Shown here one piece after another: positions 4,665-63,994 of a stretch of 64,000 nucleotides of DNA. The notes under the pieces were generated by a model. The model had not been told where the DNA came from and made no database searches. It saw only the letters and a program-made list of their open reading frames with translations. Numbering within the stretch: the first letter of the stretch is position 1; each line of letters begins with the position of its first letter. The stretch is taken from contig NZ_CP095550.1 in NCBI RefSeq assembly GCF_023078335.1, positions 1,116,001 through 1,180,000 of the forward strand, in the 5' to 3' direction. Origin of the DNA: Metabacillus endolithicus (GTDB lineage: Bacteria; Bacillota; Bacilli; Bacillales; Bacillaceae). The position numbers were made by a program, and so were the translations under genes.

Positions 4665-4863
4665 TGATATGTAGTAGTCCCGATCGTGCCGTCGCCATTT
4701 CCCTCGTTTTGATCCCGCACTCAGCAGGTGGGTGCTTTATTTCAGAGTTTGTAAGTCCTCAATCCGAGGTAGAGGCATGTACTCTGTCTGAAAACTCAAG
4801 CTCCCGTATAAACAATGTTAGGTCAAAACTAGGTGTACAACGAACACATCAGGACTTTGTGTT
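4665..4863 (-). ncRNA. ssrSA: 6S-1 RNA (BsrA/SsrS family)
   Basis: A regulatory RNA that mimics an open promoter and binds the housekeeping RNA polymerase holoenzyme in stationary phase. The minus strand shows the elements I recall from B. subtilis 6S-1: 5' AAGTCCTGATGTGTT, then TTGTACACCTAG, GGGAGCTTGAG, CCTCGGATTGAGGAC, and a 3' end with GATCGGGACTACTACATAT that closes the terminal helix. The position between aspS and tcdA (yrvM) is also the B. subtilis position. Size is about 190 bases for the mature form from about 4857. The real 5' end may be a few bases upstream, since the B. subtilis transcript is trimmed. Small ORFs predicted across it on both strands are not genes. Confidence 0.93.
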
Positions 4864-8193: not shown

Positions 8194-8232
8194 AAAAAAA
8201 CTCCCGTCCTACATCATGTAGGGACGAGAGTT
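8194..8232 (-). terminator. T-box attenuator terminator of hisS
   Basis: On the minus strand an about 13-bp stem (ACTCTCGTCC with GGACGGGAGT, minor mismatch) encloses TACATGATGTA and is followed by seven T. The conserved T-box sequence lies directly upstream, the normal arrangement for antitermination. Confidence 0.9.
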
Positions 8233-8490
8233 ATACCCGTGGTTCCACCCTAGTTGAAGCTGTCTAATGACCTCTTCCACTCAATCAGTTAACGCCTGTA
8301 TACGTCCTGCTCCTACTAAACGAATGTTTTTCAGAGAGAAACCTAAGGAGTGTTCTTCAATAAGTCATCATGTAGAAATGCTTTCAGCCCCGGACATTTC
8401 CTCTCTTGTCATGTGTATTCTTATTTACTGTTCTCCCTCAATGGTTCATAAAAATATGTATGTTTCATTGATAAGATTCTATCGAATTTT
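8194..8490 (-). promoter_or_regulatory. T-box leader, histidine-specific, controls hisS-aspS
   Basis: A transcribed leader that senses uncharged tRNA-His. The T-box core TGGAACCAC (8239-8247 on the plus strand) with AGGGTGGAACCACGGGT around it can pair with the tRNA acceptor end. In the 3' side of Stem I the sequence GAACACTCC places CAC (His codon) at 8350-8352 as the specifier. Stem I runs from about GGGAGAACAGTAAATAAG near 8435 to this point. The terminator at 8194-8232 is the attenuator. Known B. subtilis hisS-aspS control is of the same kind. Confidence 0.9.
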
Positions 8491-10849: not shown

Positions 10850-13059
10850 TTAATTCATCATTCTTCGAACCGAATAAATATCCGGTATTTGTTTAATTCT
10901 TTCAACTACCTTTTGCAAGTGATTAATATTTGAGATAGAAATAGCCATATTAATTGTCGCAACTTTATTTCGATCAGATTTACCTGCAACTGACGAAATA
11001 TTCGTTTTTGTCTCATTCACAGCTTGAAGAACTTCATTTAATAAACCACGACGATCATATCCAAGTATTTCAATTTCAACATTGTATTCCTTACGACTTG
11101 ATAAAAATTTGATTTTCCCATTCAACATCAATTAATCGCTCTTTAGCATCTTCTGTATGCACATTTGTACAGTCAGATCGGTGAACAGATACTCCTCTAC
11201 CCTTTGTAATAAATCCAACAATGTCATCCCCTGGAACTGGATTACAGCATTTTGAAAGGCGAATTAATAGATTATCAATACCCTTAACTTGTACACCTGC
11301 ATCACGCTTACGGGAAGATGTAGAAGGAACTTGTTTTACTTCATTCATTACTTCCTGAATATTCTTTTCCTGTTCCTCTTGGTCACGTTTTTTACGCCAA
11401 TTTTCTGTTAAGCGGTTGGCTACCTGCAACGCTGTTACACCATTATATCCAACAGCTGCATACATATCTTCTTCATTTGAAAAGTTAAACTTTTCGGCTA
11501 CCCGTTGCAAATTATCAGATGTCATGACTTCTTTTATATCGAAATCAAGATTTTTGATTTCTTTCTCAACCATTTCTTTTCCTTTTTCAACGTTTTCTTC
11601 TCGACGTTGCTTTTTAAAGAATTGGCGGATTTTATTTTTTGCTTGTGAAGTTTGTGCAAGCTTTAACCAATCTTGGCTTGGACCATATGAATGCTTAGAC
11701 GTTAGGATTTCAATGATGTCACCAGTTTTTAATTTATAATCAAGCGTGACCATTTTGCCATTTATTTTCGCACCTATTGTCTTATTCCCAATTTCGGAAT
11801 GAATTCGATAAGCAAAATCAATTGGGACAGAACCAGATGGTAATTCAATTACATCTCCTTTAGGAGTGAAAATAAAGACCATATCTGAGAAAAGATCAAT
11901 TTTTAATGACTCCATAAACTCTTCTGCATTCGTCACATCATTTTGAAATTCTAGTATTTCTCTAAACCATGATAGTTTTTTCTCTAATGTTGTTTTCTCA
12001 TCAATATCTTTTCCTTCTTTGTAAAGCCCAATGTGCAGCGATTCCATATTCGGCAATCTGATGCATCTCAAATGTTCTAATTTGAACTTCAAGGGGATCT
12101 CCTTTAGGTCCAATAACCGTTGTGTGAAGAGATTGGTACATATTAGGCTTTGGCATTGCAATATAATCCTTAAAGCGTCCAGGCATAGGTTTCCAGCAAG
12201 TGTGAATAATACCGAGGACAGCATAGCAATCTTTAATGCTATTCACAACAATTCGGACTGCCAAAAGATCATAAATTTCATTAAATTGTTTATTCTGAAG
12301 AACCATTTTACGATAAATACTGTAAATATGTTTCGGTCTTCCAGAAAATTCCGCTTCAATATTTACTTCGTCTACACGCTCACGTACTTCATCAATTACT
12401 TGATCTAGATACTCTAACCGCTCCTGACGTTTCTTTTTCATTAGATTTACGATTCGATAATATTGCTGTGGATTTAAGTATCTAAGCGATGTATCTTCAA
12501 GCTCCCATTTGATTTTTGAAATCCCTAATCTATGAGCTAGAGGAGCAAAAATCTCAAGTGTCTCATTTGAGATACGTCTTTGCTTTTCTTGTGGCAAATG
12601 CTTTAACGTTCTCATGTTATGAAGACGGTCTGCTAGTTTGATGAGAATAACCCGGATGTCCTGAGCCATTGCAACAAACATTTTACGATGGTTTTCTGCT
12701 TGCTGTTCTTCTTTTGATTTATATTTTATTTTGCCTAGTTTTGTAACACCATCGACGAGCATTGCCACTTCATCATTAAATTCATTGCGCAAATCCTCAA
12801 GAGTGACCTCTGTATCCTCCACAACATCATGTAAGAAGCCACCAGCAATTGTTGATGGATCCATCTCTAAATCTACCAATATCCCCGCGACTTGAATAGG
12901 ATGGATAATATATGGCTCTCCCGATTTACGGAATTGTTCTCTATGTGCTTCTTCAGCAAAATCATAGGCACGTTGAATAAAAGCGGTATCTTCGACTGAT
13001 AAATATCGCTGTGCCTTTTGAATTACTTGCTCAGAAGATAATACTTGTTCATTAGACAT
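10850..13059 (-). CDS. relA: RelA/Rel bifunctional (p)ppGpp synthetase-hydrolase, two frameshifts
   Basis: The stringent-response enzyme. Three overlapping frames together give the whole protein: HD hydrolase ([13 protein letters not shown], about 50-150), synthetase ([13 protein letters not shown], about 200-340), TGS ([21 protein letters not shown]), zinc-finger region with [13 protein letters not shown], and the C-terminal ACT domain ([17 protein letters not shown]). The first shift is at about 12023-12025, where IAAHWA should run into [10 protein letters not shown]; removing one base of the run restores it. The second is in the five-base run at 11103-11107. Correcting both gives 735 residues, against 734 in B. 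subtilis. Start ATG has AAAAAGGTG ahead. The indels look like sequencing error. Confidence 0.93.
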
Positions 13060-43388: not shown

Positions 43389-43487
43389 CTCCTATAGACT
43401 AAGACTCGCCAAAATCAGGTGAATGCATAGCATTACTTACTACCATATTTTGAGCGGTTGTAGCACGGTGCGCTACAAGTCATAACA
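43389..43487 (-). promoter_or_regulatory. L21 leader (ribosomal protein leader RNA)
   Basis: The 5' leader of rplU. A 7-bp perfect hairpin TTGTAGC/GCTACAA (43458-43464 with 43472-43478) with a GC-rich loop ACGGTGC lies near its start. Firmicutes rplU transcripts carry a conserved leader thought to bind L21 or L27 for feedback control; the match here is by position and hairpin, not by model search. Confidence 0.55.
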
Positions 43488-50209: not shown

Positions 50210-51233
50210 TTAGCGACTGTCTCTAGCTTTATTTTTAAACAAATGAATATGCTCTAAAGCTTTACCTGTTCCGATTGCAACACAATCTAACGGATCTTCT
50301 GCAATTAATACCGGCATATTCGTTTCTTCACCAATCACTTTATCAAGGTTGCGAAGAAGGGCTCCCCCTCCTGTTAACACAATTCCACGATCCATAATAT
50401 CCGCAGCAAGCTCTGGTGGAGTTTTTTCCAATGTATTTTTCACTGAATCAACAATCATATAAACCGTGTCTTTTAGGAACTTCGGCAATTTCCTCAGCCG
50501 TAATCTCAATTGTTTTCGGTAATCCTGTTAATAAGTCACGTCCACGAATATCCATGTTTTCCACTCCATCAGGAGAACCTGCTGAACCAATTTCTACTTT
50601 GATCGCTTCAGCCGTACGATCACCAATCATTAAATTATATGTTTTGCGAATGTATGTAGTAATAGCCTCATCCATTTCATCACCGGCAACACGAATTGAT
50701 TGACTTGTCACAATTCCACCTAGTGAAATAATGGCTACTTCCGTCGTTCCTCCACCAATATCAACAACCATACTTCCTGTTGGTTCCCAAACAGGAAGAT
50801 TTGCACCGATCGCAGCAGCAAATGGCTCTTCTATTGTATAAGCATCACGGGCACCTGCTTGTCTTGTTGCATCAATAACAGCTCTTTCCTCTACCGCTGT
50901 TATACCTGAAGGAACACACACCATAACATAAGGCTTTCTTGAGAAAACACCTTTTGTTTTCGTTGCTTGCTTAATATAATACTTCATCATTGTTGCTGTT
51001 GTTTCATAATCCGCAATAACTCCATCCTTCATTGGTCGAAGGGCAACGACATTTCCTGGCGTACGTCCGATCATATTTTTTGCATCATTACCAACGGCAA
51101 CAATTTGCTTTGTGTCTGTTTGCAGAGCAACTACAGATGGCTCCCGAACAACAATTCCTCTTCCTTTAACAAACACAAGTGTGTTTGCAGTCCCCAAATC
51201 TATTCCAAGGTCTCTTGTACCAATACCGAACAT
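50210..51233 (-). CDS. mreB: Rod shape-determining actin homologue MreB, one frameshift
   Basis: The bacterial actin that guides side-wall synthesis. Frame one covers most of the chain: [19 protein letters not shown] (phosphate 1), [22 protein letters not shown] phosphate 2 and adenosine region; frame two has [14 protein letters not shown] (as [14 protein letters not shown]) and [16 protein letters not shown]. They meet at the four-base T-run 50471-50474, where the frame should read [18 protein letters not shown]; removing one base restores it. Corrected length is 340 residues (337 in B. subtilis). Loss of MreB is poorly tolerated, so a sequencing error is likely. Confidence 0.93.
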
Positions 51234-53000: not shown

Positions 53001-54014
53001 CTACGATTGTAAGCTTGCAACAACCTCTAAAATTGCTTGCTGAGCTTCCCAGCCTTTATTAGCTTTAACATTTACAGCAGCTTCTGAGAGCTTGCTAAGT
53101 AAAGACTTTTCAGTGTCGTTCGCAGTTTCAATTTCTTTTAATTGTGACTCAATAGCTGATACTTCATCTTGATTCACACTTTGTCCATTTGTTGCTTGAG
53201 AAGCTAGTGAAGATAAAGTAACAATTGAGCTTACCCACTTATCAGGGGTCTTTGTAGTTGCAATGGAAAGGGATAATTGCTTTCCTCCCCAAAAATCATT
53301 AAATGAGTTCTGTTTATACAGATTGTTTAAGGCTTCTGTTTCGGCTTTCTCTTTCCCAATACCAGCTAAAACAGTGAAAGATCCATCTGTCTCAATCACT
53401 GTAGAAGCCAACCCTTTATTTTTTATAGTAGACGAAACTGTATCTGCTCCCTCTTTCGTTGAAAAGATTCCACCTTGTACAACGTAAAGCTGGAGAGTTG
53501 CTGGAGAGGTTGAAGCTGCTGCTGGCTCCTCTGTATTACCACCCTCGGTTGAATCTGCATCAGGTGTGTCATTTGTGACAACCGTAGGAACAGACGCATC
53601 TGGCATATCTTTATTAGATAAAAAGTTTAATGCAATATAACCAAATCCAACTCCTAGAAAAATAGCCATAAGAATCACTGTGAACATTTGTTTTAAAGGA
53701 AAAGTGGCAAAATTACTTTTGCTTTTTGTTTTTTTCGAATAAACAAAAGGGGTAACTGTTGAATTTGATAAAATTTTCTTTTTCTTAGGAGTCACTACCT
53801 TAGGATCATCTTCAAAAACACTGTCATCTTCATCAGGCAAAAGCCAAGGAAAATCTTCTTCTTCTTTTTTAGCAGAAGCCATTTCTTTTTCAGCCTGCAG
53901 CTTCTCTTCCCATGACGATATTTGATATTCTTCGTTTTTTGATTCTTTTTCTGACACAGGACGATCTTTACCATTTATTTTGATTTTTACTGTGTCTGAG
54001 GTCTGCTTGTCCAT
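53001..54014 (-). CDS. spoIIB: SpoIIB-like SPOR-domain membrane protein
   Basis: A 337-residue bitopic protein. N-terminal cytosolic region is charged (MDKQTSDTVKIKINGKDR onwards, with acidic DEDDSVFEDD), one helix at about 110-130, then a low-complexity linker and a SPOR domain (LYVVQGGIFSTKEGADTVSS, about 185-255) that binds denuded glycan strands at septa. SpoIIB in B. subtilis lies at the same place, upstream of maf, and aids engulfment. Here it is the gene after pilO. ATG 54014 has GGTGGTAGG ahead. Confidence 0.8.
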   Translation of the reverse strand: MDKQTSDTVKIKINGKDRPVSEKESKNEEYQISSWEEKLQAEKEMASAKKEEEDFPWLLPDEDDSVFEDDPKVVTPKKKKILSNSTVTPFVYSKKTKSKSNFATFPLKQMFTVILMAIFLGVGFGYIALNFLSNKDMPDASVPTVVTNDTPDADSTEGGNTEEPAAASTSPATLQLYVVQGGIFSTKEGADTVSSTIKNKGLASTVIETDGSFTVLAGIGKEKAETEALNNLYKQNSFNDFWGGKQLSLSIATTKTPDKWVSSIVTLSSLASQATNGQSVNQDEVSAIESQLKEIETANDTEKSLLSKLSEAAVNVKANKGWEAQQAILEVVASLQS

Positions 54015-54138
54015 ATGCCTACCACCCTTCTTTGAAAACACGACCACTCATAATGATCTAATGCTAACAGAAGGATAAAAAAAGAACAAGACATTTGTCG
54101 TCTCATCCTTAATTTTTTTCGTCATTTTTTTTAACAGG

Positions 54139-54918
54139 CTATGATCGATCTTCGTCTTCTTCTTCAATCGCATTTGTAAAAGGATTTTGTTTATCACTTG
54201 GCTCAGGCGTAAAAATTGGTGGTAGCTGTTCTCGTAACTCTTCCAAACTAGGTAAATAAAACGTCGAAATCACAACATTGTATTCATAATCTGTTTCTTC
54301 ACTATCTTCAAGCAGATGAACGAATTCAGGATTTCCTTCTACTGAAACAGATTCAATTTGTGTAATTCTTCTCGAGTTTTCTAGAACACCTATAAAATCT
54401 TCTAATTCATAATAGCTCGGAGATGTTACGGTTAACTCAACCGTTAATTTTTCTAATCCTTCCGGCATAGGCTCAGTTTTTACTTCTTTGGATGTTACTT
54501 CAGAATTTTCTTTTTCTGCATCAGGATCTAATTTTTCTTCATAAGCTTCGACAAGCTCATCGCCTTCTTCTTCAGCAGTAACCTCTTCACCTTCTTGAAA
54601 AGTTAATGACGTAATCATACTGTTAGAAATTGTCTCCGCTTTTTCTAAGTCTAGAAGAAATTGCTCTTCAAAAGGACTAACAGGAAGAATTTTTTGTAAT
54701 TCTACTGCAGAAAGCATTGCTTCATTACTACTTGAACCTGTACTAGCCTTTTGCAAAGTTTGAATAAGTGTATTCTCCGTTTCAATTTGACTTTGCAGAC
54801 TGTCTATTTGTTGAGTTTTTGGTTTTATTAATAGTAAATAAGAAAAATAAACAACAAGAGAAGATAGAACAAGTGTAAGGACGATGATTATTGTATGTTT
54901 TTTTCTCCATTCAATCAT
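54139..54918 (-). CDS. pilO: PilO-like type IV pilus alignment protein
   Basis: A 259-residue bitopic membrane protein: helix at about 10-32, coiled coil at about 37-65, then a ferredoxin-like domain (LTVELTVTSPSYYELEDFIGVLENS). Between them lies an acidic Glu-rich insert at about 108-150. PilO pairs with PilN in the membrane; the match is by topology and neighbours. Its start overlaps the end of pilN by 4 bases. Confidence 0.75.
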   Translation of the reverse strand: MIEWRKKHTIIIVLTLVLSSLVVYFSYLLLIKPKTQQIDSLQSQIETENTLIQTLQKASTGSSSNEAMLSAVELQKILPVSPFEEQFLLDLEKAETISNSMITSLTFQEGEEVTAEEEGDELVEAYEEKLDPDAEKENSEVTSKEVKTEPMPEGLEKLTVELTVTSPSYYELEDFIGVLENSRRITQIESVSVEGNPEFVHLLEDSEETDYEYNVVISTFYLPSLEELREQLPPIFTPEPSDKQNPFTNAIEEEDEDRS

Positions 54919-55498
54919 TCTTCACTGTCCTCCTCTTTAAAAGCCTTTAGGGCAGCTCTGTCAATAAGCAGTTTATACCCGGCTAGATATCGCGGAACAG
55001 AATCTTCTGCTGCTACATCAATTGGTACTGTTTCTACTGTTAGTAATTTCACTTCTTCCAATAAGTCAGATTCTTTAAGTCTTTTTAAATAATAGGCCGT
55101 TTCACTAGATGACTCAAACTGAACAATCAATTCTAGTGAAGAGCTATCCAAGTAATCCATTTGATAGAAATATCCCTTTTCAGGTAGCTGTTTTGTTAGT
55201 TCATTTAATAAAGGAACAAAATCTACTGGATATTCTTCAGACCATTGAATAGCCTTTTCCAAATCTGATACGGCATCGGAATCAGTACTTTGACTTGCTT
55301 GCTGCTGCAGAACAGTTGTCTGCTGCTGAGCTGTATCATATTCTTGTTCTAATTGAGCTATTTGTTCATTTTTTTGTTCAGTAATGAAAAAATAGTCAAC
55401 GTTGCACCAAGTAAGATGATTGCCACAATTAAAATAAAGAAGATGTTGGTGTAGTTTCGTTGCTGTTTTTGTGGGAGTAAATTAATTTCCGCTAACAT
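54915..55498 (-). CDS. pilN: PilN-like type IV pilus assembly protein, one frameshift
   Basis: N-terminus MLAEINLLPQKQQRNYTN is the PilN signature (INLLP) that binds PilM, followed by a helix at about 20-40. The frame then breaks at the six-base A-run 55387-55392; one added base joins it to the second frame (ITEQKNEQIAQLEQEY, coiled coil, then the ferredoxin-like domain DFVPLLNELTKQLPEKGYFYQM). Corrected length is 194 residues. The start ATG lies 7 bases after pilM ends, with AGAGGTG inside the pilM end. Confidence 0.82.
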
Positions 55499-55504
55499 GA
55501 TGAT

Positions 55505-56500
55505 TTACACCTCTTTTAATGCTAATCCAAGCACAGTATGAAACTTAGCGGGAACAGCTATGTTTTTATGTGTGTATACACGATCTTTGAAAAGAGTAAT
55601 AGTAATGGATGTTCCCAGTTCTTTTAAATCTTTCTGTAATTCATGTATATACGGGTTATCACCTAATAATTCAATATGTGATATTTGGTGGTCTCCTTGA
55701 TGAAGACTAAAACGATAGAAATTGATGATTTTTTCAATTTCTTTCACTACATCCCGAAATTGAAGAGCAAGCTCTTCAGGTTCTTTACATTCATATTGAT
55801 AGTATAATTGCGTTTCCGGCTCAAGTTTGTACGACCATTTTTTCAACATTCCCTCTAACGGTAAATGACGTGTAAAAATCGGCTTACAATCTTCAAAAAT
55901 ACTAAAGTTTACCGAGTCAAGTTTTACTTCCACTAGCAATGTGTTATCTTTACTTTTCACATGCTGTTTGTTATAAAGCAATCTGTAGTTAGAAAGTGCC
56001 GATAAATCTGCAGCAGTTGCTTCTAGCTTCAAATCATCAAGTAGCTCTGTGTATTGCTTAATCATAGCCTCTGGTGCTGCAAACAGAAGAATTTCCTTTT
56101 CAGTCTCAGTTTCTTGCAAAGGCACAAAGTCAAATACAGGCTCTTCAAATGGAAGATGAATGTTGTTTCCAAGCTCTAAATAAAGATAACCCTTGATTTC
56201 ATCATCCTTCAAATCTGCCGGCACCTTAACTTTACGTACACTGACGAAAGCATCAGGAGTAATAAATCGTACCTGTTTGCGTTTTATTCCCCATTCACTC
56301 ATACACTGATCCAAAATCATCGCAAGCTTATCAGCATCCTTAATCTGCCCGTCAACAACAATTCCTTCAGGTAAATACGTTTCAACAAAATGGTTCACTA
56401 CAAGTGGATCTATGCTTTTAAGTTCAAGCAATTGAATGGAGTAATTTGTTATATATAAGTTAATAGAATGTTTATTTTGTCTAAATAAAGGAAGAGCCAT
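55505..56500 (-). CDS. pilM: PilM-like actin-fold pilus assembly protein
   Basis: A 331-residue cytoplasmic protein of the FtsA/PilM fold that links PilN to the motor. Segments MALPLFRQNKHSINLYITNYSI, QVRFITPDAFVSVRKVKVP and FEEPVFDFVPL are as in Gram-positive PilM proteins; the chain ends with IAVPAKFHTVLGLALKEV. The ATP loops are weakly conserved. Follows the prepilin peptidase gene. Confidence 0.82.
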   Translation of the reverse strand: MALPLFRQNKHSINLYITNYSIQLLELKSIDPLVVNHFVETYLPEGIVVDGQIKDADKLAMILDQCMSEWGIKRKQVRFITPDAFVSVRKVKVPADLKDDEIKGYLYLELGNNIHLPFEEPVFDFVPLQETETEKEILLFAAPEAMIKQYTELLDDLKLEATAADLSALSNYRLLYNKQHVKSKDNTLLVEVKLDSVNFSIFEDCKPIFTRHLPLEGMLKKWSYKLEPETQLYYQYECKEPEELALQFRDVVKEIEKIINFYRFSLHQGDHQISHIELLGDNPYIHELQKDLKELGTSITITLFKDRVYTHKNIAVPAKFHTVLGLALKEV

Positions 56501-56515
56501 TATAAAAACCCCTTC

Positions 56516-57286
56516 TTAATATAAGTAAGAAAAGAATGTAAGCATGTATAGCGAGATAAGTTCAGAACCAAAGAAATATGCCACCAAAGCACCGATAACT
56601 AGAAATGGACCAAAAGGGAATGGTTTGCCCTTTTTCACACTACCTGTCAGCATTCCAGCTACTCCTACTATGGTACCAACTAATGTGGCGATAAAAAAGG
56701 TTAGGAGCACAAGTTTCCAGCCAAGCACAACACCAAAAACAGCTAAAAGCTTCATATCTCCGCCACCCATACCTCCTCGACTGACCAAAATAATAACGAG
56801 AGGTACAAGAATCCCCACAATTAGACCCGCGATTGGATCCCACCATGGTTCAGTACGTATGAACATTCTTTCAATAAAAAATAAAACAAGAAAAAACAAA
56901 TTCACCTTATCAGGAATAATCATATATTTCAAATCTGATACGGTAACAATCGTGCAAAGTGAAATAAGTGACCATGCTATAATCAATTCTTTTGACCATC
57001 CCACCAAAAGCGGTGAAATCGTAAAAAGAATCGCTGTTAGTAGTTCCATTGATGGATATAATGGTGAAATAGAAGTTTTGCAGTTTTTGCATTTGCCCAT
57101 TTGGAGTACGTATGACAGTATTGGGATTAGTTCGCTTGGTGATAGTTTTTTGTCACATACAGGGCAGGCTGAGCTTGGGTATGCGATGGATTTTTTTAGT
57201 GGGACACGGAGTCCGACTACATTGAAAAAGGAGCCTAGTGTTGCGCCTAGTATGAAGATGTAGGTGTGTAAGGTAATTATTAACAT
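56516..57286 (-). CDS. pilD: Prepilin peptidase (PilD/ComC type)
   Basis: An aspartyl membrane protease of 256 residues that cuts and N-methylates prepilins. The N-terminal half has the four-cysteine zinc site (CPVCDKKL, CKNCKTSI near residues 42-70); the catalytic aspartates are in SDLKYMIIPD and GMGGGDMKLL. About seven or eight helices. B. subtilis has its ComC at this exact locus, so this enzyme may serve both the pilus and the competence pseudopilus. ATG 57286 has GAGGGG ahead. Confidence 0.92.
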   Translation of the reverse strand: MLIITLHTYIFILGATLGSFFNVVGLRVPLKKSIAYPSSACPVCDKKLSPSELIPILSYVLQMGKCKNCKTSISPLYPSMELLTAILFTISPLLVGWSKELIIAWSLISLCTIVTVSDLKYMIIPDKVNLFFLVLFFIERMFIRTEPWWDPIAGLIVGILVPLVIILVSRGGMGGGDMKLLAVFGVVLGWKLVLLTFFIATLVGTIVGVAGMLTGSVKKGKPFPFGPFLVIGALVAYFFGSELISLYMLTFFSYLY

Positions 57287-57321
57287 AACTGCGCCCCTCA
57301 TCAAATAAATAAGAATACCAA

Positions 57322-57345
57322 GAAAGTCCCCAAACGAGGACTTTC
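57322..57345 (-). repeat. Stem-loop between pilin gene and prepilin peptidase gene
   Basis: An exact 8-bp inverted repeat GAAAGTCC/GGACTTTC (57322-57329 with 57338-57345) with an 8-base loop, in the gap after the pilin gene. No T-run follows, so it is more likely an mRNA-stabilising or partial attenuation hairpin than a terminator. Confidence 0.55.
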
Positions 57346-57368
57346 AATGTAATAAACGATACCATGGA

Positions 57369-57827
57369 TTATGGATTTTTAATATTAGTTCTTGCAAGCG
57401 CACTAGTTTCTGTTTTTCCGTCCAGGTACTCTACTGCGTTTTCTGTTGCATTGCTCTTTAGAATTACAAAGTATTGATAATTATTTCCACTTCTTTGAAC
57501 TTTAACCTGAGTAGCATCATCACCATAGTTTGAACCATCGCCACTTGGGTTTTGAATATTCTCAATATGCCCCTTTGAAATTAATTCGCTAAGTTTTACC
57601 GTTTTTGAATCTCCATCAGCAATTTTTACATTTTCAGTTGTTACGTATAATCTCGCTGCATTTGAAATCTGTTCCGCATTCGCTATATGGGCATCGATTC
57701 TAGAATTATTGATTAATCCACCAATCGCCGGAATCGCAATCGCAGCAATAATCCCTAAGATTACAACTACTGCTAATAGCTCGATTAACGTCAATCCGCG
57801 CTCATTTTTCATAAGTTTTTTTAACAT
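57369..57827 (-). CDS. pilA: Type IV pilin (PilA/PilE-like)
   Basis: A 152-residue major-pilin candidate. The class III signal peptide ends KNERG at residue 11, cut before Leu12, which leaves Glu at position 5 of the mature chain (LTLIE). The hydrophobic helix LLAVVVILGIIAAIAIP follows. The head has NAARLYVTTENVKI and few cysteines (none visible), so no disulfide loop. AGGAGGAAAA precedes the ATG. It lies between pilC and the prepilin peptidase gene with its own candidate promoter. Confidence 0.88.
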   Translation of the reverse strand: MLKKLMKNERGLTLIELLAVVVILGIIAAIAIPAIGGLINNSRIDAHIANAEQISNAARLYVTTENVKIADGDSKTVKLSELISKGHIENIQNPSGDGSNYGDDATQVKVQRSGNNYQYFVILKSNATENAVEYLDGKTETSALARTNIKNP

Positions 57828-57874
57828 TTCTTTTCCTCCTAAAAGCTTAGTTCTAATTCCCTAAATCTATGTTA

Positions 57875-57902
57875 ATTATACATCAATAGTTTAGGTAGTG
57901 AA
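57875..57902 (-). promoter_or_regulatory. Candidate promoter of the pilin gene
   Basis: Minus strand -10 TATAAT (57875-57880), 16-base spacer, -35 TTCACT (57897-57902), in the 93-bp gap between pilC and the pilin gene. It would allow the pilin to be made in excess of the machinery. Confidence 0.4.
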
Positions 57903-57920
57903 TATAAAAATATTGTAAAT

Positions 57921-59129
57921 TTACATCTGCACATGGTTAAATATGTCAAACATTGGAACAATAATAGCTATGACAATCGTACCAACTATTCCTGCTAATA
58001 GAACGATCATTAACGGCTCAATTAGTGACTTTAGTCGATCTGTACTATTTTCTACTTCTTCTTCATAAAAGTCCGCGACTTTTCCAAGCATTTCATCTAG
58101 TGAACCAGTTTCTTCTCCAATGGCGATCATTTGAGTAACAAGTGGTGGAAATGCCCAGTGCTTTTTCATTGGTTCAGTTAATGACAAACCATTTTCCAAG
58201 GAAACACGAGAATTGGCAATCACCTTTGCCACGACTTCGTTTTCAACGATTTTCTCAACAATGGCTAAAGACTGAAGAATCGGCACAGAGCTTGAAAATA
58301 ACGAACTGAGTGTTCTTGTCATTCTTGCTAATACAGCTTTTTGAATCATGCTTCCAAAAATCGGCATACGAAGGGCAACAACATCTAAATAATACTTTGT
58401 CTGCTTATTTTTACGTAACACATAAAAAGTAGAAAAAACAGCAACAAAAAACAGGATAACAATATACCAATACTCTTGCATAAAAATACTAGAGTTTAAG
58501 ACAAACAATGTGATAGCTGGTAACTGTGCTCCAAATCCTTCAAACATCGAAACAAAGGTAGGAACAACAGAAACTAGCAAAAAGATTACAACAACAACAG
58601 CAACAATCGCAACCGCCATTGGATAGGCCAAAGCAGATTGAATCTTTTGCTTTGTTCGATGCTGTTTTTCATATTGAATAGCAAGCCTGTCCAGTGTTTC
58701 TTCCATACTACCGCTTGCTTCACCTGCTTTAATCATATTCACAAACATCGAAGAAAAGATCCGTTTATGCTTTGCTGCTGCAACAGATAAGGCTTGTCCC
58801 GATTTTAAATCATCCTCCATTTGCTCTAATGCTTTTCGTAACGGCTTACTGCTAGTTTGCTTAGCTAAGATATTTGTTGCATCAACTATTGTCACACCAG
58901 CTCGTAACAACGTAGAAAATTGCCTAAGATAAACAACAAATTCCTGAAGCTTAACAGGATTACCAATCGCTATATCCTTTGTTAGCAGTGTTTCTGGAAT
59001 TTCTTCAATATTTGTAATTCTTATTCCTAGTTCACTCAGTTTCAGAACAGCTTCTCGCTTAGAATTAGCAGTAACTTTTCCAGACTTTTTACCTGAACGG
59101 TCACGACCTTCGTATTTAAACTTTGCCAT
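57921..59129 (-). CDS. pilC: PilC inner-membrane platform protein
   Basis: A 402-residue GspF-family membrane protein at the base of the pilus. Two repeats of the GspF domain, each with helices after SGQALSVAAAKH and VEKIVENEVV; three main helices (about 165-185, 215-235 and 373-395). The N-terminus MAKFKYEGRDRSGKKSGKV is the family start. It shares one base with the pilT stop. Confidence 0.92.
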   Translation of the reverse strand: MAKFKYEGRDRSGKKSGKVTANSKREAVLKLSELGIRITNIEEIPETLLTKDIAIGNPVKLQEFVVYLRQFSTLLRAGVTIVDATNILAKQTSSKPLRKALEQMEDDLKSGQALSVAAAKHKRIFSSMFVNMIKAGEASGSMEETLDRLAIQYEKQHRTKQKIQSALAYPMAVAIVAVVVVIFLLVSVVPTFVSMFEGFGAQLPAITLFVLNSSIFMQEYWYIVILFFVAVFSTFYVLRKNKQTKYYLDVVALRMPIFGSMIQKAVLARMTRTLSSLFSSSVPILQSLAIVEKIVENEVVAKVIANSRVSLENGLSLTEPMKKHWAFPPLVTQMIAIGEETGSLDEMLGKVADFYEEEVENSTDRLKSLIEPLMIVLLAGIVGTIVIAIIVPMFDIFNHVQM

Positions 59130-60178
59130 TAGTCTGTCGTCCCTTGTTTGTATGGTAAGGCTGCTTCAGAAGAAATAACGCCTGCTTTTACATACTCTGA
59201 AAGAGAGCTTTCAAAGGTTTGCATTCCTTGTGCCCTACTTGTTTGAATCACGCTCGGAATTTGGTATGTTTTTTCATTACGTATTAAGCTGGCAACTGCC
59301 GAATTATTCAATAGGATTTCTGTAACAGCACGGCGCCCTGATTTATCAACCGTAGGGAAAAGTCTTTGTGAAATAACCCCAATTAACACCGAAGCTAGCT
59401 GAAGTCGAATTTGTGGCTGCTGATTAGCCGGAAACACATCAATAATCCGATCAACCGTTGATGCAGCAGACGACGTGTGAAGAGTTCCTAGAACAAGGTG
59501 CCCTGTTTCGGCTGCCGTTATCGCTGTGTGAATCGTTTCTAAATCACGAAGCTCTCCAACTAAGATTACATCCGGATCTTGTCTTAGTGCTGCTTTTAAT
59601 CCTGATGCAAAGCTACCTGTATCAAAACCAACTTCACGTTGATCAACAATGCATTTTTGATGTTTATGCAAATATTCAATCGGATCCTCAAGTGTAATAA
59701 CATGGCGCTTCATCGTTTGATTCATAAAGGAAATCATCGACGCAAGTGTTGTTGATTTTCCACTGCCGGTTGGGCCAGTTACTAAGATAAGTCCATGAGG
59801 CTTTTCCACAATTGATTTTAAAATCGATGGCAACTGTAAATCGTCTATTGATGGAATATTTCTTGGAACAATTCGTACAGCTAAGGAAATACAAGAACGC
59901 TGGCGAAACGCATTAACACGAAAGCGAGATACACCCGGTATTCCGTAAGAAAAATCAAGCTCTCCTTTTTCTTCAAACAATGACCATTTTGCTGAAGAAA
60001 TCATTGCCTTTGCCATTTCTTCTGTATCAGCAGGCATTAACATGTTTTCGCCAATTCGAACTAACTCGCCATTAATTCTCATAACAGGAGGTACACCAAC
60101 TGACAAATGAATGTCTGAAGCTTGCTTTTCAAAAGCAAGCTTTAATATAGAGTCAATTTTTGCTTTCAATGTTTTCAC
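59129..60178 (-). CDS. pilT: PilT pilus retraction ATPase
   Basis: A 349-residue hexameric motor that disassembles the pilus. Walker A GPTGSGKSTTLASMI near residue 132, Asp box TLEDPIEYLH, Walker B VILVGELRDLETI, His box HLVLGTLHTSSAAS. There is no MshEN domain and no zinc site, as expected for PilT versus PilB. It starts one base after pilB ends. Confidence 0.93.
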   Translation of the reverse strand: MKTLKAKIDSILKLAFEKQASDIHLSVGVPPVMRINGELVRIGENMLMPADTEEMAKAMISSAKWSLFEEKGELDFSYGIPGVSRFRVNAFRQRSCISLAVRIVPRNIPSIDDLQLPSILKSIVEKPHGLILVTGPTGSGKSTTLASMISFMNQTMKRHVITLEDPIEYLHKHQKCIVDQREVGFDTGSFASGLKAALRQDPDVILVGELRDLETIHTAITAAETGHLVLGTLHTSSAASTVDRIIDVFPANQQPQIRLQLASVLIGVISQRLFPTVDKSGRRAVTEILLNNSAVASLIRNEKTYQIPSVIQTSRAQGMQTFESSLSEYVKAGVISSEAALPYKQGTTD

Positions 60179-61840
60179 CTACTCCGCTACAGTTACACGT
60201 AATATTTCTTCTGTTGTTGTTAATCCTTGCTTTACCTTAAGCAGGCCATCATCAATTAAAAAGATTGTTTTATTTTTTATCGCAAGATCACGGAGCTTTG
60301 AAAATGGTTCATTATTCATGATCACTCGCTTCATTTCATCACTCAACATAAGAAGCTCGTGGATGGCTAATCTTCCTTTATAACCTGTCATATTACAAGT
60401 TCCACAGCCTCTGCCTCTTACAACTTTATCAATGGATAAGCCTCTTTTAGCAAAAATCTCGATTTCTCGTTGTGTAGGAGCTTGTTCTGAAGCACAATCA
60501 CGGCATACTTTACGAACAAGTCGTTGAGCCACAACACCAGTTAAAGAAGATGCCACTAAAAATGGTTCTACTCCCATATCAACCAAGCGTGTAATGGTAC
60601 CTAATGAATCATTTGTATGAAGTGTGCTTAACACTAAATGTCCTGTTAATGATGCACGTACTGCAACATCAGCTGTTTCACGGTCACGAATTTCCCCAAC
60701 CATAATAATATTAGGATCTTGACGAAGAATGGATCGCAATCCTTTTGCGAATGTCATTCCAACATTTGCATTGACTTGAATTTGATTGATTCCTTCAAGC
60801 TGATACTCAACTGGATCTTCAATCGTAATAATATTTACTTCCTCTGAATTCAAATGGTTTAACGCTGCATACAAAGTGGAAGATTTCCCAGAACCTGTTG
60901 GACCTGTAATTAACATAATCCCCGTAGGATTTTCTATTAATGTTTTGAATCTTTTTAAATTTAAGCTATTAAAACCGAGCTTGTTTAAATCATTTAAGGT
61001 ACTGCCCAAATCTAAAATACGCATAACAATCTTTTCACCGTAAATTGTCGGAAGTGTTGAAACACGAAGATCGATTGGATGAAATTCGATATGCATTTTG
61101 ATTCGACCATCCTGTGGAACTCGATGCTCGGTAATATCTAAATTTGCCATGATTTTCAGACGGGCAACTAAAACGCTTTGCATATGCTTTGGAAATGTTC
61201 GTTCATTTTTTAGAACACCGTCAACACGAAAGCGAATTAACACTTTTGTTTCTTGAGGGTCAATATGAATATCACTGGCTTTTTGTTGAACAGCGTTTTG
61301 AAGAATTTGATTAACAAGTCTAACAACAGGTGAATCATCACTTGTGATTTTTTCTTCCTGAACCTCATCTTGAACAGTTAATTGGTTCATAATATCTGAC
61401 ATGCTGTCATCGATTTCATAGTACTTATTGATTGCTCTTAAAATATCATCTTTTGAGGCAATAGCTGTTTCAATTTGAAATCCTGTTGCAAGACGAAGAT
61501 CATCAATCGCATAGAAATCCATCGGATCTGCCATCGCAACAAAAAGCTTATCTCCCTCAACTTTGATTGGAATTAATAAATTTCGCTTAGCCATTTCTTT
61601 TGATACAAGCTTAATTAATTTTTGATCAAACGGAAAACGATACAAGCTTACATGCGGAATTCCTAACTGAAATTCTAGAACCTCAATTAATTGCTGCTCT
61701 GTAATAAAGCCTCTTTCAAGTAAGGCATCCCCTAATCGCTGCCCCTTTTGTTTTTCTGCTAGAGCCGATTGTAGTTGTTCTTCTGTTATAAGTCCTGAAT
61801 CTAGTAATAAGTCTCCCAATCTTTTTCTAGTATCGTTCAT
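60179..61840 (-). CDS. pilB: PilB pilus extension ATPase with MshEN domain
   Basis: A 553-residue GspE-family motor. Residues 7-58 hold two MshEN-type repeats (RLGDLLLDSGLITEEQL and RLGDALLERGFITEQQL), a fold known to bind cyclic-di-GMP. The N2 domain follows, then the motor: GPTGSGKSSTLYAAL (Walker A), TIEDPVEYQL, IIMVGEIRDRETADVA. A zinc site with CRDC and CGTC pairs is near residues 445-490. It ends next to the pilT start. Confidence 0.94.
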   Translation of the reverse strand: MNDTRKRLGDLLLDSGLITEEQLQSALAEKQKGQRLGDALLERGFITEQQLIEVLEFQLGIPHVSLYRFPFDQKLIKLVSKEMAKRNLLIPIKVEGDKLFVAMADPMDFYAIDDLRLATGFQIETAIASKDDILRAINKYYEIDDSMSDIMNQLTVQDEVQEEKITSDDSPVVRLVNQILQNAVQQKASDIHIDPQETKVLIRFRVDGVLKNERTFPKHMQSVLVARLKIMANLDITEHRVPQDGRIKMHIEFHPIDLRVSTLPTIYGEKIVMRILDLGSTLNDLNKLGFNSLNLKRFKTLIENPTGIMLITGPTGSGKSSTLYAALNHLNSEEVNIITIEDPVEYQLEGINQIQVNANVGMTFAKGLRSILRQDPNIIMVGEIRDRETADVAVRASLTGHLVLSTLHTNDSLGTITRLVDMGVEPFLVASSLTGVVAQRLVRKVCRDCASEQAPTQREIEIFAKRGLSIDKVVRGRGCGTCNMTGYKGRLAIHELLMLSDEMKRVIMNNEPFSKLRDLAIKNKTIFLIDDGLLKVKQGLTTTEEILRVTVAE

Positions 61841-61865
61841 CCATAATCCCTTTCTTTAATTAAGA

Positions 61866-63185
61866 TTATTTTTCAATCGCATTTTTTGAAGGAGTTTCCC
61901 AAATACCTTCACTGTCAGGTTTCACTTCATCCTCAGCTGTATCGCTATTTTCATTGTCTTCTTCAGAAGATGCTTCGTTTACTGTTGTTTCCTGCTCCGC
62001 ATTTTCTGTCTCTTCAGTGATTACTTCGTTAGTAGATTGATTATTTAGCAATCTATTAATTAAACCCGTTTCGATTATTTTATGAGTAGGAGGATAAAAA
62101 TCTTCTGCAATTTCCTCAGAATCAACAAGAGCTCCCTCTAGATCAAACACCTCGCGAGTAATCTTAACAGATAAACCATCTTTACCTTCTTGAATGACCT
62201 TTTCTTGACCTTCTTCTAGTAAACTAGTATATCGAATAATAGATTTTGGTTTATAAGATGTTTTTTCCTCTAAATTTATCTTATAGCTGTATAAAAAAGG
62301 TGCCCCATTTATTCTTACAAATAGCCCAGCATTTGTTAACTCTAAAGAAATCGTATATTCCGATTGATTCGGGTTATACCATTTTAAATCAGACTTATCC
62401 TTTATAATATTTGCCTCATACCCAAGTTCAATTGTTCCTGGCAACTCATGACCTGTATGGCGTTCAACAATGACAAAGTTGGATGATAGGAATGTTTTAT
62501 AAAGTGCTGATGAAACAACATTTAAACCTTCTTGTGGAAGATTTTCTGATTTCTTTGTAAGTTCTAGTAATGAAACTTGTGATTGAGCTGGTACGATGAT
62601 GGTACCAATTGAATCAACTACTTTTTGTACCATAGCATAATCAAATGATGTTGAAATGAAATTTTCTGCTGCTACGGTATTTAAGTCGCTTTTTACATAT
62701 GCATCAATTGAGAAAAATTGATTTTCTGTTTGCATCTTTCTCACAGCATCTAAGATCACTGCTTGGAGCTGCTCATGATCTATTGTTTCGTATCGCTCAT
62801 TAAGCAGGGTTTTTAGTTGTTCTTCATAAACATTTTGATTAACAGAGACAATCAAGTTATTACTCTCTCCACTTGTGATCGAGTCAACTGTTGCTGGAAA
62901 ATCCAAGTTAAAAAAGTCCTGATCTATAACTGTATTTTCCTCATTAATTGAGAGCTGCAAATATTCACCTTGAAACCATGTTGATACTTGCTGATTCAGT
63001 TCATCTACAGCCTGCTCTTTTGTCATATTTTCTATATTGACAGAACCAATTAAAGTCCCTGGCTCAAAAGTTCCTTTTGACAGAAATGCATCATAAGCCT
63101 TCACACCCATTTGTGAAAAACTAATCAAATAAACAGTGGAAATAAGTAATACTAAATATATTTTCAACCCTCTGTTTAAGTTCAA
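61866..63185 (-). CDS. VanW/G5-domain membrane-associated protein
   Basis: A 439-residue protein with an N-terminal helix (about 9-30, signal anchor), an extracellular region of two peptidoglycan-binding-4-like repeats (about 35-170), a VanW domain (VIVERHTGHELPGTIELGYEAN, about 240-290), a G5 domain (about 335-380, with VIQEGKDGLSVKITREV), and an acidic tail. VanW proteins of this type act at the cell wall but have no known reaction. TTG start at 63185. It lies just upstream of pilB. Confidence 0.75.
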   Translation of the reverse strand: MNLNRGLKIYLVLLISTVYLISFSQMGVKAYDAFLSKGTFEPGTLIGSVNIENMTKEQAVDELNQQVSTWFQGEYLQLSINEENTVIDQDFFNLDFPATVDSITSGESNNLIVSVNQNVYEEQLKTLLNERYETIDHEQLQAVILDAVRKMQTENQFFSIDAYVKSDLNTVAAENFISTSFDYAMVQKVVDSIGTIIVPAQSQVSLLELTKKSENLPQEGLNVVSSALYKTFLSSNFVIVERHTGHELPGTIELGYEANIIKDKSDLKWYNPNQSEYTISLELTNAGLFVRINGAPFLYSYKINLEEKTSYKPKSIIRYTSLLEEGQEKVIQEGKDGLSVKITREVFDLEGALVDSEEIAEDFYPPTHKIIETGLINRLLNNQSTNEVITEETENAEQETTVNEASSEEDNENSDTAEDEVKPDSEGIWETPSKNAIEK

Positions 63186-63202
63186 AATTGGTTGCTCCTT
63201 TT

Positions 63203-63994
63203 TTACATTTCAGTATTCATAGACAGTTCAACGAATGTACTTGGGCCATCATTTTGGGCCTTTTGAATATCATCAATTGACAATACTGTACCACTTTCAA
63301 TAAGTAACTGTTGATTCGATCCATAAATATCTTTAATGACTCTTTTTCCTTCTAGTAACTGAATTTGTTTTTCCTTAATCACATCAATTTGTTCATTATC
63401 CAGATCCTCAAATTGATCTTCCTTTTGTACTGGAGATAGATCTTCTAATAATTCTTCTACCGTATTATTTTGTTTTTCTGTTGAAACTTCCTCTTCAACA
63501 AGCTGCTTTGCAGACTCCAGTAATGCTGCAGCAGCATCTTCACTTACAACTAATATATCTTTTCCGAACGTTAAAACATTTTCAGACTTTACATAAACAT
63601 CTTTATTATTCACAAACAAGTGAAGACCGATAATAACACCAGTTTCTTCATTAACATAATACTCTTTGGCTTCTCCAAGTAATTGACCTTTTCGAGTAAT
63701 AACACGAGTATCGGTAATTTTAATTCGCTTATTAACAAGCTGATTCGCGATTGGAATTTCATTAAGGTCAATAATGGCGTTATCTGAATCGATTGTAACA
63801 GCAAACTCACCAATCCCAATTACTTTACTAAATGGAATAGCCTTTACACTTACTTGCCAGTCATCATGTTCAACAGTTAAAAAATCAACCGTCCCTTTTT
63901 CAGGATTCACAACAAGTGATTTTACATTGCCAAGCTCTACCCCAGCTGTAATACTAATAATTGGTAAACCTACGATTTCACTACTTTTTTTCAT
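63203..63994 (-). CDS. PRC-barrel protein
   Basis: A 263-residue cytoplasmic protein with two PRC-barrel-type beta repeats (about 1-78 and 88-155; EIVGLPIISITAGVELGNVKS, RVITRKGQLLGEAKEYYV) and an acidic C-terminal part with a third beta segment. The PRC barrel is found in RNA processing and photosynthetic proteins and often binds other proteins. No signal peptide is seen. It may be the first or second gene of the pil transcript; the window ends 6 bases upstream of the ATG, so the true start and its ribosome site cannot be confirmed. Confidence 0.75.
   Translation of the reverse strand: MKKSSEIVGLPIISITAGVELGNVKSLVVNPEKGTVDFLTVEHDDWQVSVKAIPFSKVIGIGEFAVTIDSDNAIIDLNEIPIANQLVNKRIKITDTRVITRKGQLLGEAKEYYVNEETGVIIGLHLFVNNKDVYVKSENVLTFGKDILVVSEDAAAALLESAKQLVEEEVSTEKQNNTVEELLEDLSPVQKEDQFEDLDNEQIDVIKEKQIQLLEGKRVIKDIYGSNQQLLIESGTVLSIDDIQKAQNDGPSTFVELSMNTEM

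Follow-up and report, generated by a model that had tools for sequence, protein, structure and literature searches.

Why does the comC locus of a Bacillus-type genome hold a whole series of pil genes, with a comG operon elsewhere on the same chromosome, and what does this imply for species in which comC stands alone? The question is raised by a 64,000-nucleotide stretch of Metabacillus endolithicus (contig NZ_CP095550.1, positions 1,116,001 to 1,180,000; called the window here), part of a 5.05 Mb contig, in which the pil genes form a minus-strand run from 63994 down to 54139. The PilT of this run is 85–86% identical to those of two strains of Metabacillus litoralis, a species that carries this locus too, and of a Bacillus metagenome-assembled genome. 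We consider it probable that these genes specify a retractable pilus of type IVa in a cell with one membrane, distinct from the ComG filament and having a prepilin peptidase in common with it. A broader reading, to which we give an even chance, is that comC is, across the order, a gene of the pil operon working for two filaments, and that in B. subtilis-like genomes, where it stands alone, it is the last gene of a pilus lost many times. Pili that survived would then combine a hypervariable pilin head with a swappable tip, made of a ComZ-like solenoid pilin and a secreted VWA adhesin, and with a dedicated VanW-G5 wall component replacing outer-membrane parts.

Gene content and type of the pil locus

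Within the window the run starts with genes for a PRC-barrel protein (63203..63994; Pfam PRC 41.1 bits) and a VanW-G5 protein (61866..63185; G5 33.7 and VanW 32.7 bits, with one N-terminal hydrophobic helix recognised by eye), which a preliminary description of this DNA had covered without naming. Next comes pilB (60179..61840), for an extension ATPase whose MshEN N-terminus is of the cyclic di-GMP (c-di-GMP)-binding type (T2SSE 461.3 and MshEN 81.3 bits; NF053729 66.1 bits against a cut-off of 38), and then pilT (59129..60178), for a retraction ATPase (TIGR01420 484.1 bits, cut-off 319.1) that matches the solved PilT 2ewv (E 2.1e-105) and in this alignment retains the GPTGSGKST, VGELRD and LHT motifs. 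The platform protein gene pilC (57921..59129; T2SSF 215.2 bits over two stretches) is followed by pilA (57369..57827), for the major pilin, a prepilin with the cleavage site G/LTLIE (N_methyl 32.6 bits), and by comC/pilD (56516..57286), for the prepilin peptidase (A24_N 99.3 and A24 76.4 bits). The last three genes are pilM (55505..56500; PilM_2 75.8 bits), which is above the Pfam cut-off and below that of NCBIfam (99.8 against 133), pilN (54915..55498), read in two frames of which the second scores 24.5 bits for PilN (cut-off 22.8), and pilO (54139..54918), which is named from its position, its length and a hydrophobic stretch near the N-terminus, its T2SSM score being 18.7 bits against a cut-off of 27.8. 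Thus the eight genes named from the sequence alone, pilB to pilO, are all present on the minus strand where they had been placed, and profiles back most of the names; the weak ones are PilO, which stays under its cut-off, and pilN, which is not one open frame. Touching or overlapping gene ends, also claimed, were found for most of the run (neighbours overlap or lie at most 25 bp apart) and not around pilA, where 93 bp separate it from pilC and 82 bp from the comC ATG.

Beyond pilO lie the gene of a SPOR-domain protein, SpoIIB (53001..54047, minus strand; SPOR 22.5 bits, cut-off 21), and then maf, radC and mreB, named by eye. At the other end the set continues past the window edge (stretch L008) with an unknown gene and, on the opposite strand, two N_methyl minor pilins above cut-off and a 549-aa PilX-like pilin that has no Pfam match; a secreted VWA protein, a GGDEF protein, folC and valS follow. 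The search for minor pilins that the preliminary description had proposed yielded three pilin-type genes and the VWA gene just outside the window. With pilV, pilW and pilX named from order and size, the full set reads folC, GGDEF, VWA, pilX–pilW–pilV (reversed), unknown gene, PRC, VanW-G5, pilB, T, C, A, comC, M, N, O, spoIIB, maf.

To which kind of system does this set belong? It contains the parts of a type IVa pilus: PilB with MshEN, PilT, a platform protein, a class III prepilin, a prepilin peptidase, PilM, PilN and minor pilins. Models of the Com pilus fell short on the window proteins (pilin 21.2 of 75 bits, PilC 135.8 of 240 bits), and a profile search of the whole genome found no secretin (PF00263), while the secretin-bearing control genomes did match; the earlier remark that no secretin is seen thus extends to the entire genome. 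A type II-like secretion system, that is, an endopilus and not a displayed pilus, would be suggested by PilB, which is just below both equivalog cut-offs and scores nearly as high on GspE (618.7 against 630.25) as on its best model, TIGR02538 (631.0 against 675.65), and by PilC, which best fits the GspF model. We regard this as highly improbable in view of PilT, PilM, the missing secretin match and the hypervariable exposed subunits described below.

The view that PilT makes this more than a transformation pseudopilus is borne out by the PilT score and motifs and by the separate position of comG. In the contrary case considered in the preliminary description, the pil operon would be the sole DNA-uptake system. 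A comG operon lies at 991–995 kb of the same contig, 180 kb from the pil locus, so the pil operon is not the only candidate for DNA uptake; its ComGC is above cut-off, the genes after comGC are named by order, and ComEC is present at position 1083882. The gene content thus supports a type IVa-type pilus system that stands beside ComG and does not replace it. As a separate observation, the smaller replicon (contig C2, 246 kb) carries a Tad-like cluster (L010:5810-11005) with SAF/CpaB-like and TadZ-like proteins, a TadA-like ATPase and two TadB/C-like membrane proteins, of which the ATPase alone is profile-backed (T2SSE), the rest being named by eye.

The prepilin peptidase and lone comC genes

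The peptidase of the pil operon is the only one of the PilD/ComC type (A24_N domain) in this genome. How general is this? We surveyed this genome with 40 relatives (41 genomes, which already included the 21 of a larger genus sample) and a sample of 120 genomes chosen to cover the order evenly (102 new, the other 18 shared with the first set), with a peptidase model that requires the N-terminal A24_N domain and would miss TadV-type enzymes lacking it. PilT was above cut-off in 27 of the 41 genomes; each of the 41 had exactly one A24_N peptidase, which in all 27 PilT-plus genomes lay within 5 kb of pilT. Over the order, PilT was above cut-off in 83 of the 120 genomes, and 118 had a single A24_N peptidase, whereas G111 had two and G077 had none; the peptidase lay on the same contig as pilT and at most 10 kb away in 82 of the 83, and at most 6 kb away in 79. 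The com system is more widespread: ComGC was above cut-off in 39 of the 41 genomes (missing in G007 and in G020, which is PilT-plus and 89% complete) and matched at E 1e-15 or better in 120/120 of the order sample, above cut-off in 118 (G058, PilT-plus, is just under). From these counts we infer that PilD/ComC cleaves the prepilins of both systems.

Synteny, whose comparison had also been proposed, gave the same flanks with and without pil genes. In 25 of the 27 PilT-plus genomes the pil genes are bordered by folC at one end and by spoIIB, maf or radC at the opposite end, with about 20 kb of further genes between folC and pilB in G029; the contig of G022 ends, and G038 has neither flank. Among the 14 PilT-minus genomes, comC lies between folC and spoIIB in ten, the contig of G007 being cut. 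The B. subtilis-type order, with comC only between folC and spoIIB, holds in kind: six PilT-minus relatives (G005, G006, G010, G016, G017, G039) have this order and no pil fragments beside comC, three of them with a GGDEF gene between; B. subtilis itself is outside the genomes compared. A side observation concerns Paenibacillus, where the pil operons of four loci (L032-L035) include a comC-type peptidase, their minor pilins are not reversed, and the 10 kb flanks gave no folC or spoIIB match.

Five other PilT-minus genomes carry pieces of pil genes beside comC. G008 retains the end of pilC (36 codons), the greater part of pilA, the start of pilM (43 codons) and codons 106-259 of pilO; its pilM and pilO pieces are each in two frames, and the best match of this remnant is the PilT-plus sister G012. 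G011 has whole pilM, N and O at 94-98% to its PilT-plus sister G001, and G035 has VanW-G5, the last 76 codons of pilT, and pilC, pilA, M, N and O, with no pilB match. The remnants of G013 (the last 28 codons of pilA and the last 69 of pilO) and of G024 (46 codons from the start of a pilin, which are generic and make this a weak case) are shorter. A further match in PilT-minus genomes, orfU, was dropped, the query having been a mislabelled G018 protein upstream of valS. In the five genomes the fragments speak for loss, and a comC that stands alone appears to be what is left of a pil operon.

A rather unlikely alternative is that the lone comC is ancestral and that pil genes were added around it, or swapped in, many times. 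The trees lend it some weight. In a quick species tree, built from those 36 of the 41 genomes that had two or more marker genes (thus without G025, G029, G031, G035 and G038), the PilT label changes at least seven times, five of them within the genus. In the comC tree two types occur within the genus, and the species-tree neighbours G008/G012 and G010/G016 fall into different types; keeping their species grouping costs 120 log-likelihood units (approximately unbiased test, p 3.9e-65), the groups having been chosen after seeing the trees. PilB, PilT and PilC of G012 group with G018, G009 and G023, as its comC does, so the cassette moves. Against an ancestral lone comC stand the fragments in five of 14 PilT-minus genomes, which point to deletion, the presence of pil genes on both sides of comC in the same order in several families, and the 83 PilT-plus genomes of 120.

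A different doubt comes from the strain itself. Its pilN starts with the ATG at 55498 and runs to a stop ending at 55358, the remainder (54915-55481) being in another frame; comGB (L009:7189-8198) is likewise in two overlapping frames, and decaying pil genes occur at the same locus in other species. Is the operon decaying and the system dead in this strain? We think this quite unlikely. The genes mreB (window 50210-51233) and folC (L008:9550-10892) are split in the same way, as relA (window 11091-13059) appears to be, and the comparison with relatives, which covered pilN, folC, comGB and mreB, found single frames: pilN of 193-195 aa in 6/6 measured, folC of 433-449 aa in 6/6, comGB of 350-361 aa in 5/5, and mreB of 337-365 aa in the ten genus members whose gene ends inside the fetched stretch. 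The remaining pil genes are full length, and PilB, PilT and PilC are 98-100% identical in the two nearest species. Because cells are expected to need mreB and folC, and both are split too, indel errors of the assembly are likelier than decay.

Several points nevertheless count against a retractable pilus here and against the loss of such pili elsewhere. Should the splits prove genuine, the pil or the com system might not work in this strain, and PilO is assigned with no profile above cut-off. "One peptidase" means one of the PilD/ComC type, types without A24_N being outside the search; G061 has its peptidase on another contig and G111 has two, the sole pattern-breakers among the 83 PilT-plus genomes, and in G100, G111 and G112 the distance to pilT is 8-10 kb. 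Three PilT-minus genomes (G025, G031, G035) carry comC away from folC and spoIIB, and two of the five remnants are slight, G024 keeping a pilin stem only and G013 two short ends. The seven state changes on the species tree cannot tell gain from loss, and at this same site the pil cassette has passed between lineages, so that some of the changes may be gains. Finally, a search for ComK boxes upstream of comC in 17 genomes gave no excess over shuffles; its positive control, comGA, stood out in one of five only, so the test had no power.

Exposed, wall-associated and regulatory candidates

The genes of the locus differ strikingly in how far they have diverged from the two nearest species (G002/G015). 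Identities are 100/99% for pilB, 98/98% for pilT, 98/99% for pilC, 96/95% for comC, 98/97% for pilM and 96/93% for ComGC; VanW-G5 (83/86%), GGDEF (83/86%) and folC (92/89%) are intermediate, and pilA (65/58%), pilX (75/49%), pilW (78/53%), pilV (86/73%) and VWA (70/58%) are variable. In the pilin the stem is conserved and the head alone is 51/39% identical; at the DNA level, identity is 46-72% over some 480 bases, comprising the pilA head and the gap after it, between flanks of 85-99%. The G015 head is 74% like that of G004, from another branch, and comC is 80% there. Such variability of exposed subunits agrees with a displayed pilus on which diversifying pressure acts and whose heads are exchanged.

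What could stand at the tip? The VWA protein (VWA_2 68.3 bits) has a secretion signal recognised by eye and no pilin motif match, and its metal ion-dependent adhesion site (MIDAS) motif DKSGS is invariant in 19 aligned sequences, drawn from at least 22 matches. The leading Foldseek neighbours of its model are mostly pilus tip adhesins (Mfa5, PitA, SpaC, RrgA and S. sanguinis PilB), and with its modelled VWA fold and MIDAS it is a candidate tip adhesin. A Pfam scan to E 0.1 returned VWA families and weak strays only, with no beta-propeller of the Neisseria PilC domain. In another genome (G040, L197/L144) two tandem VWA genes adjoin the PilX-like gene.

For the PilX-like pilin, of which 56 of at least 62 matches were aligned (about 8000 candidates were scored in this search and in the VWA one), the only Foldseek match of the model below E 1e-3 is Thermus ComZ, a likeness of fold only at 11% identity, and no sequence link to ComZ was found. 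For both models the neighbours are those among the fold families in the aligner lists. ComZ is a DNA-binding tip pilin (PMC6561018, in the part cited here), and this, with the peptidase common to both systems, raises the possibility that the pil operon serves DNA uptake, either with PilT retracting the ComG filament or with the pilus itself taking up DNA as in diderms, the ComZ-like pilin being the DNA receptor. We hold this to be improbable: ComGC is in 120 of 120 genomes against 83 with PilT, so the uptake pilin does not track PilT; the type IVa pilus of S. sanguinis is dispensable for uptake, according to the passages cited of PMC7212644; and the ComZ match is one of fold.

How might a fibre pass the wall of a cell with one membrane? 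The VanW-G5 protein is a candidate cell-wall part. BLAST matches to it, down to 24% identity, were obtained at the pil loci of 25 PilT-plus genomes out of 27 (this one included), and in 22 of them they lie no more than 31 nt from pilB; G037 and G038 had none, and there pilO, matched in place in the other 25, also gave no match. Among the 14 PilT-minus genomes it was found once, at a remnant locus. The profile check was made for the window's protein, the relatives being identified by BLAST. The PRC-barrel protein was matched in 14 of the 27 (this one included), always directly before VanW-G5. G5 domains bind wall sugars. In the part of a review cited here (PMC6916266), passage through the wall is left open and PilO is suspected.

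As for regulation, a hairpin in the pilA–comC gap (57322..57345, minus strand) resembles a terminator or attenuator. Homologous gaps of 20-260 nt contain a stem of at least eight pairs in 15 of 16 PilT-plus genomes, the other 11 of the 27 being skipped; its letters vary while the stem persists, and in G021 shuffled sequences often match the stem length. It may set the pilin level above that of the rest of the operon. Scans for sigma-70 promoters (27 found, 36.5 expected) and terminators (9 against 6.1) are no evidence in themselves. The GAF-GGDEF protein beside folC (L008:7735-9441), with a GGEEF site, is a possible local source of c-di-GMP for PilB; its gene was rejected as a pilus-tied partner, being at the locus also in six of the 14 PilT-minus genomes (G008, G010, G011, G016, G024, G039). 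In the window and L008 no c-di-GMP riboswitch was found at gathering scores, only two T-boxes, a 6S RNA and an L21 leader; those in the window are the 6S RNA (4673-4858), the T-box leader before a hisS-like gene (8217-8450) and the L21 leader (43392-43469).

Proposed working and comparison with known systems

Taken together, these features suggest the following working of a type IVa pilus. PilD/ComC would cleave both pil and com prepilins, and PilB would polymerise PilA on a PilMNO–PilC base, tuned by c-di-GMP through MshEN. The beta-solenoid, ComZ-like pilin and the two minor pilins would cap the fibre, where the VWA adhesin may be carried, the VanW-G5 protein would help the fibre to cross or anchor in the wall, and PilT would retract it. 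The likely use would be surface adhesion and twitching with hypervariable exposed parts. Species losing the pilus would delete the other pil genes piecemeal and retain comC, because competence needs the peptidase. If this is true, comC of B. subtilis, the main Gram-positive model of DNA uptake, is a relic of a pilus, most sampled species of the order still have the pilus, and their competence depends on the enzyme of that operon. The VanW-G5 protein, the VWA protein and the solenoid pilin would be concrete candidates for wall passage and tip composition in one-membrane pili.

Such pili had been called little described in Bacillaceae, which has to be revised. PilT is the majority state in the order sample, Bacillales pil operons have been in print since 2011 and a Paenibacillus type IV pilus operon has been deleted and tested (PMC9765702); the passages cited of Imam et al. 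2011 (PMC3244431) list operons in Bacillus sp. NRRL B-14911, two Geobacillus and Exiguobacterium, describe Gram-positive pil operons with pilT and list B. subtilis without a pil operon. In the literature searched, which scarcely covers subscription journals, we found nothing on this locus in Metabacillus, and as far as it goes we did not meet a single peptidase in the pil operon, comC as a remnant, divergence of pilin head and tip far above the motors, or the tip models; a link of G5 or VanW to monoderm pili was not evident in the part examined.

How does the locus compare with systems already known, as far as the cited parts of these papers describe them? The PilY1/PilC tip adhesins of diderms resemble it in having a secreted VWA protein adjoining minor pilins; their beta-propeller (PMC8179133) is not among the Pfam matches here. 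ComZ of Thermus thermophilus (6QVI; PMC6561018) may share with the PilX-like model a large beta-solenoid module on a pilin, and both have the ice-binding protein 4NU2 as neighbour, a likeness of predicted fold alone. Streptococcus sanguinis (PMC7212644, PMC10790768, PMC6916266, PMC8179133) is also a monoderm with a retractable type IVa pilus, a Com system and a VWA adhesin module proposed for the tip. There a pilin carries the fused VWA module, comC stands by itself at a distance and the pilus assembly is drawn with a PilD, whereas here the VWA protein is separate and one peptidase lies in the pil operon. According to a 2020 paper (PMC7212644), S. sanguinis had until then stood alone among monoderms in expressing Com pili as well as retractable type IVa pili; Bacillus relatives would add many monoderms with both to test. 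The Bacillales operons of Imam et al. (PMC3244431) likewise comprise pilB, C, D, M and N, some with pilT, and their genomes contain one com operon besides; a pilD/comC homologue occurs in each species, not always in the same operon; the passages cited do not take up a single common peptidase, the folC–spoIIB locus, remnants, or VanW-G5, VWA and solenoid parts. The pilus of Paenibacillus thiaminolyticus (PMC9765702) has, as here, a PilB with MshEN, a PilT and a monoderm set without secretin, but its genes belong to an insertion of clinical strains that is predicted to be mobile, whereas the pil genes described in this study occupy the chromosomal comC locus between folC and spoIIB.

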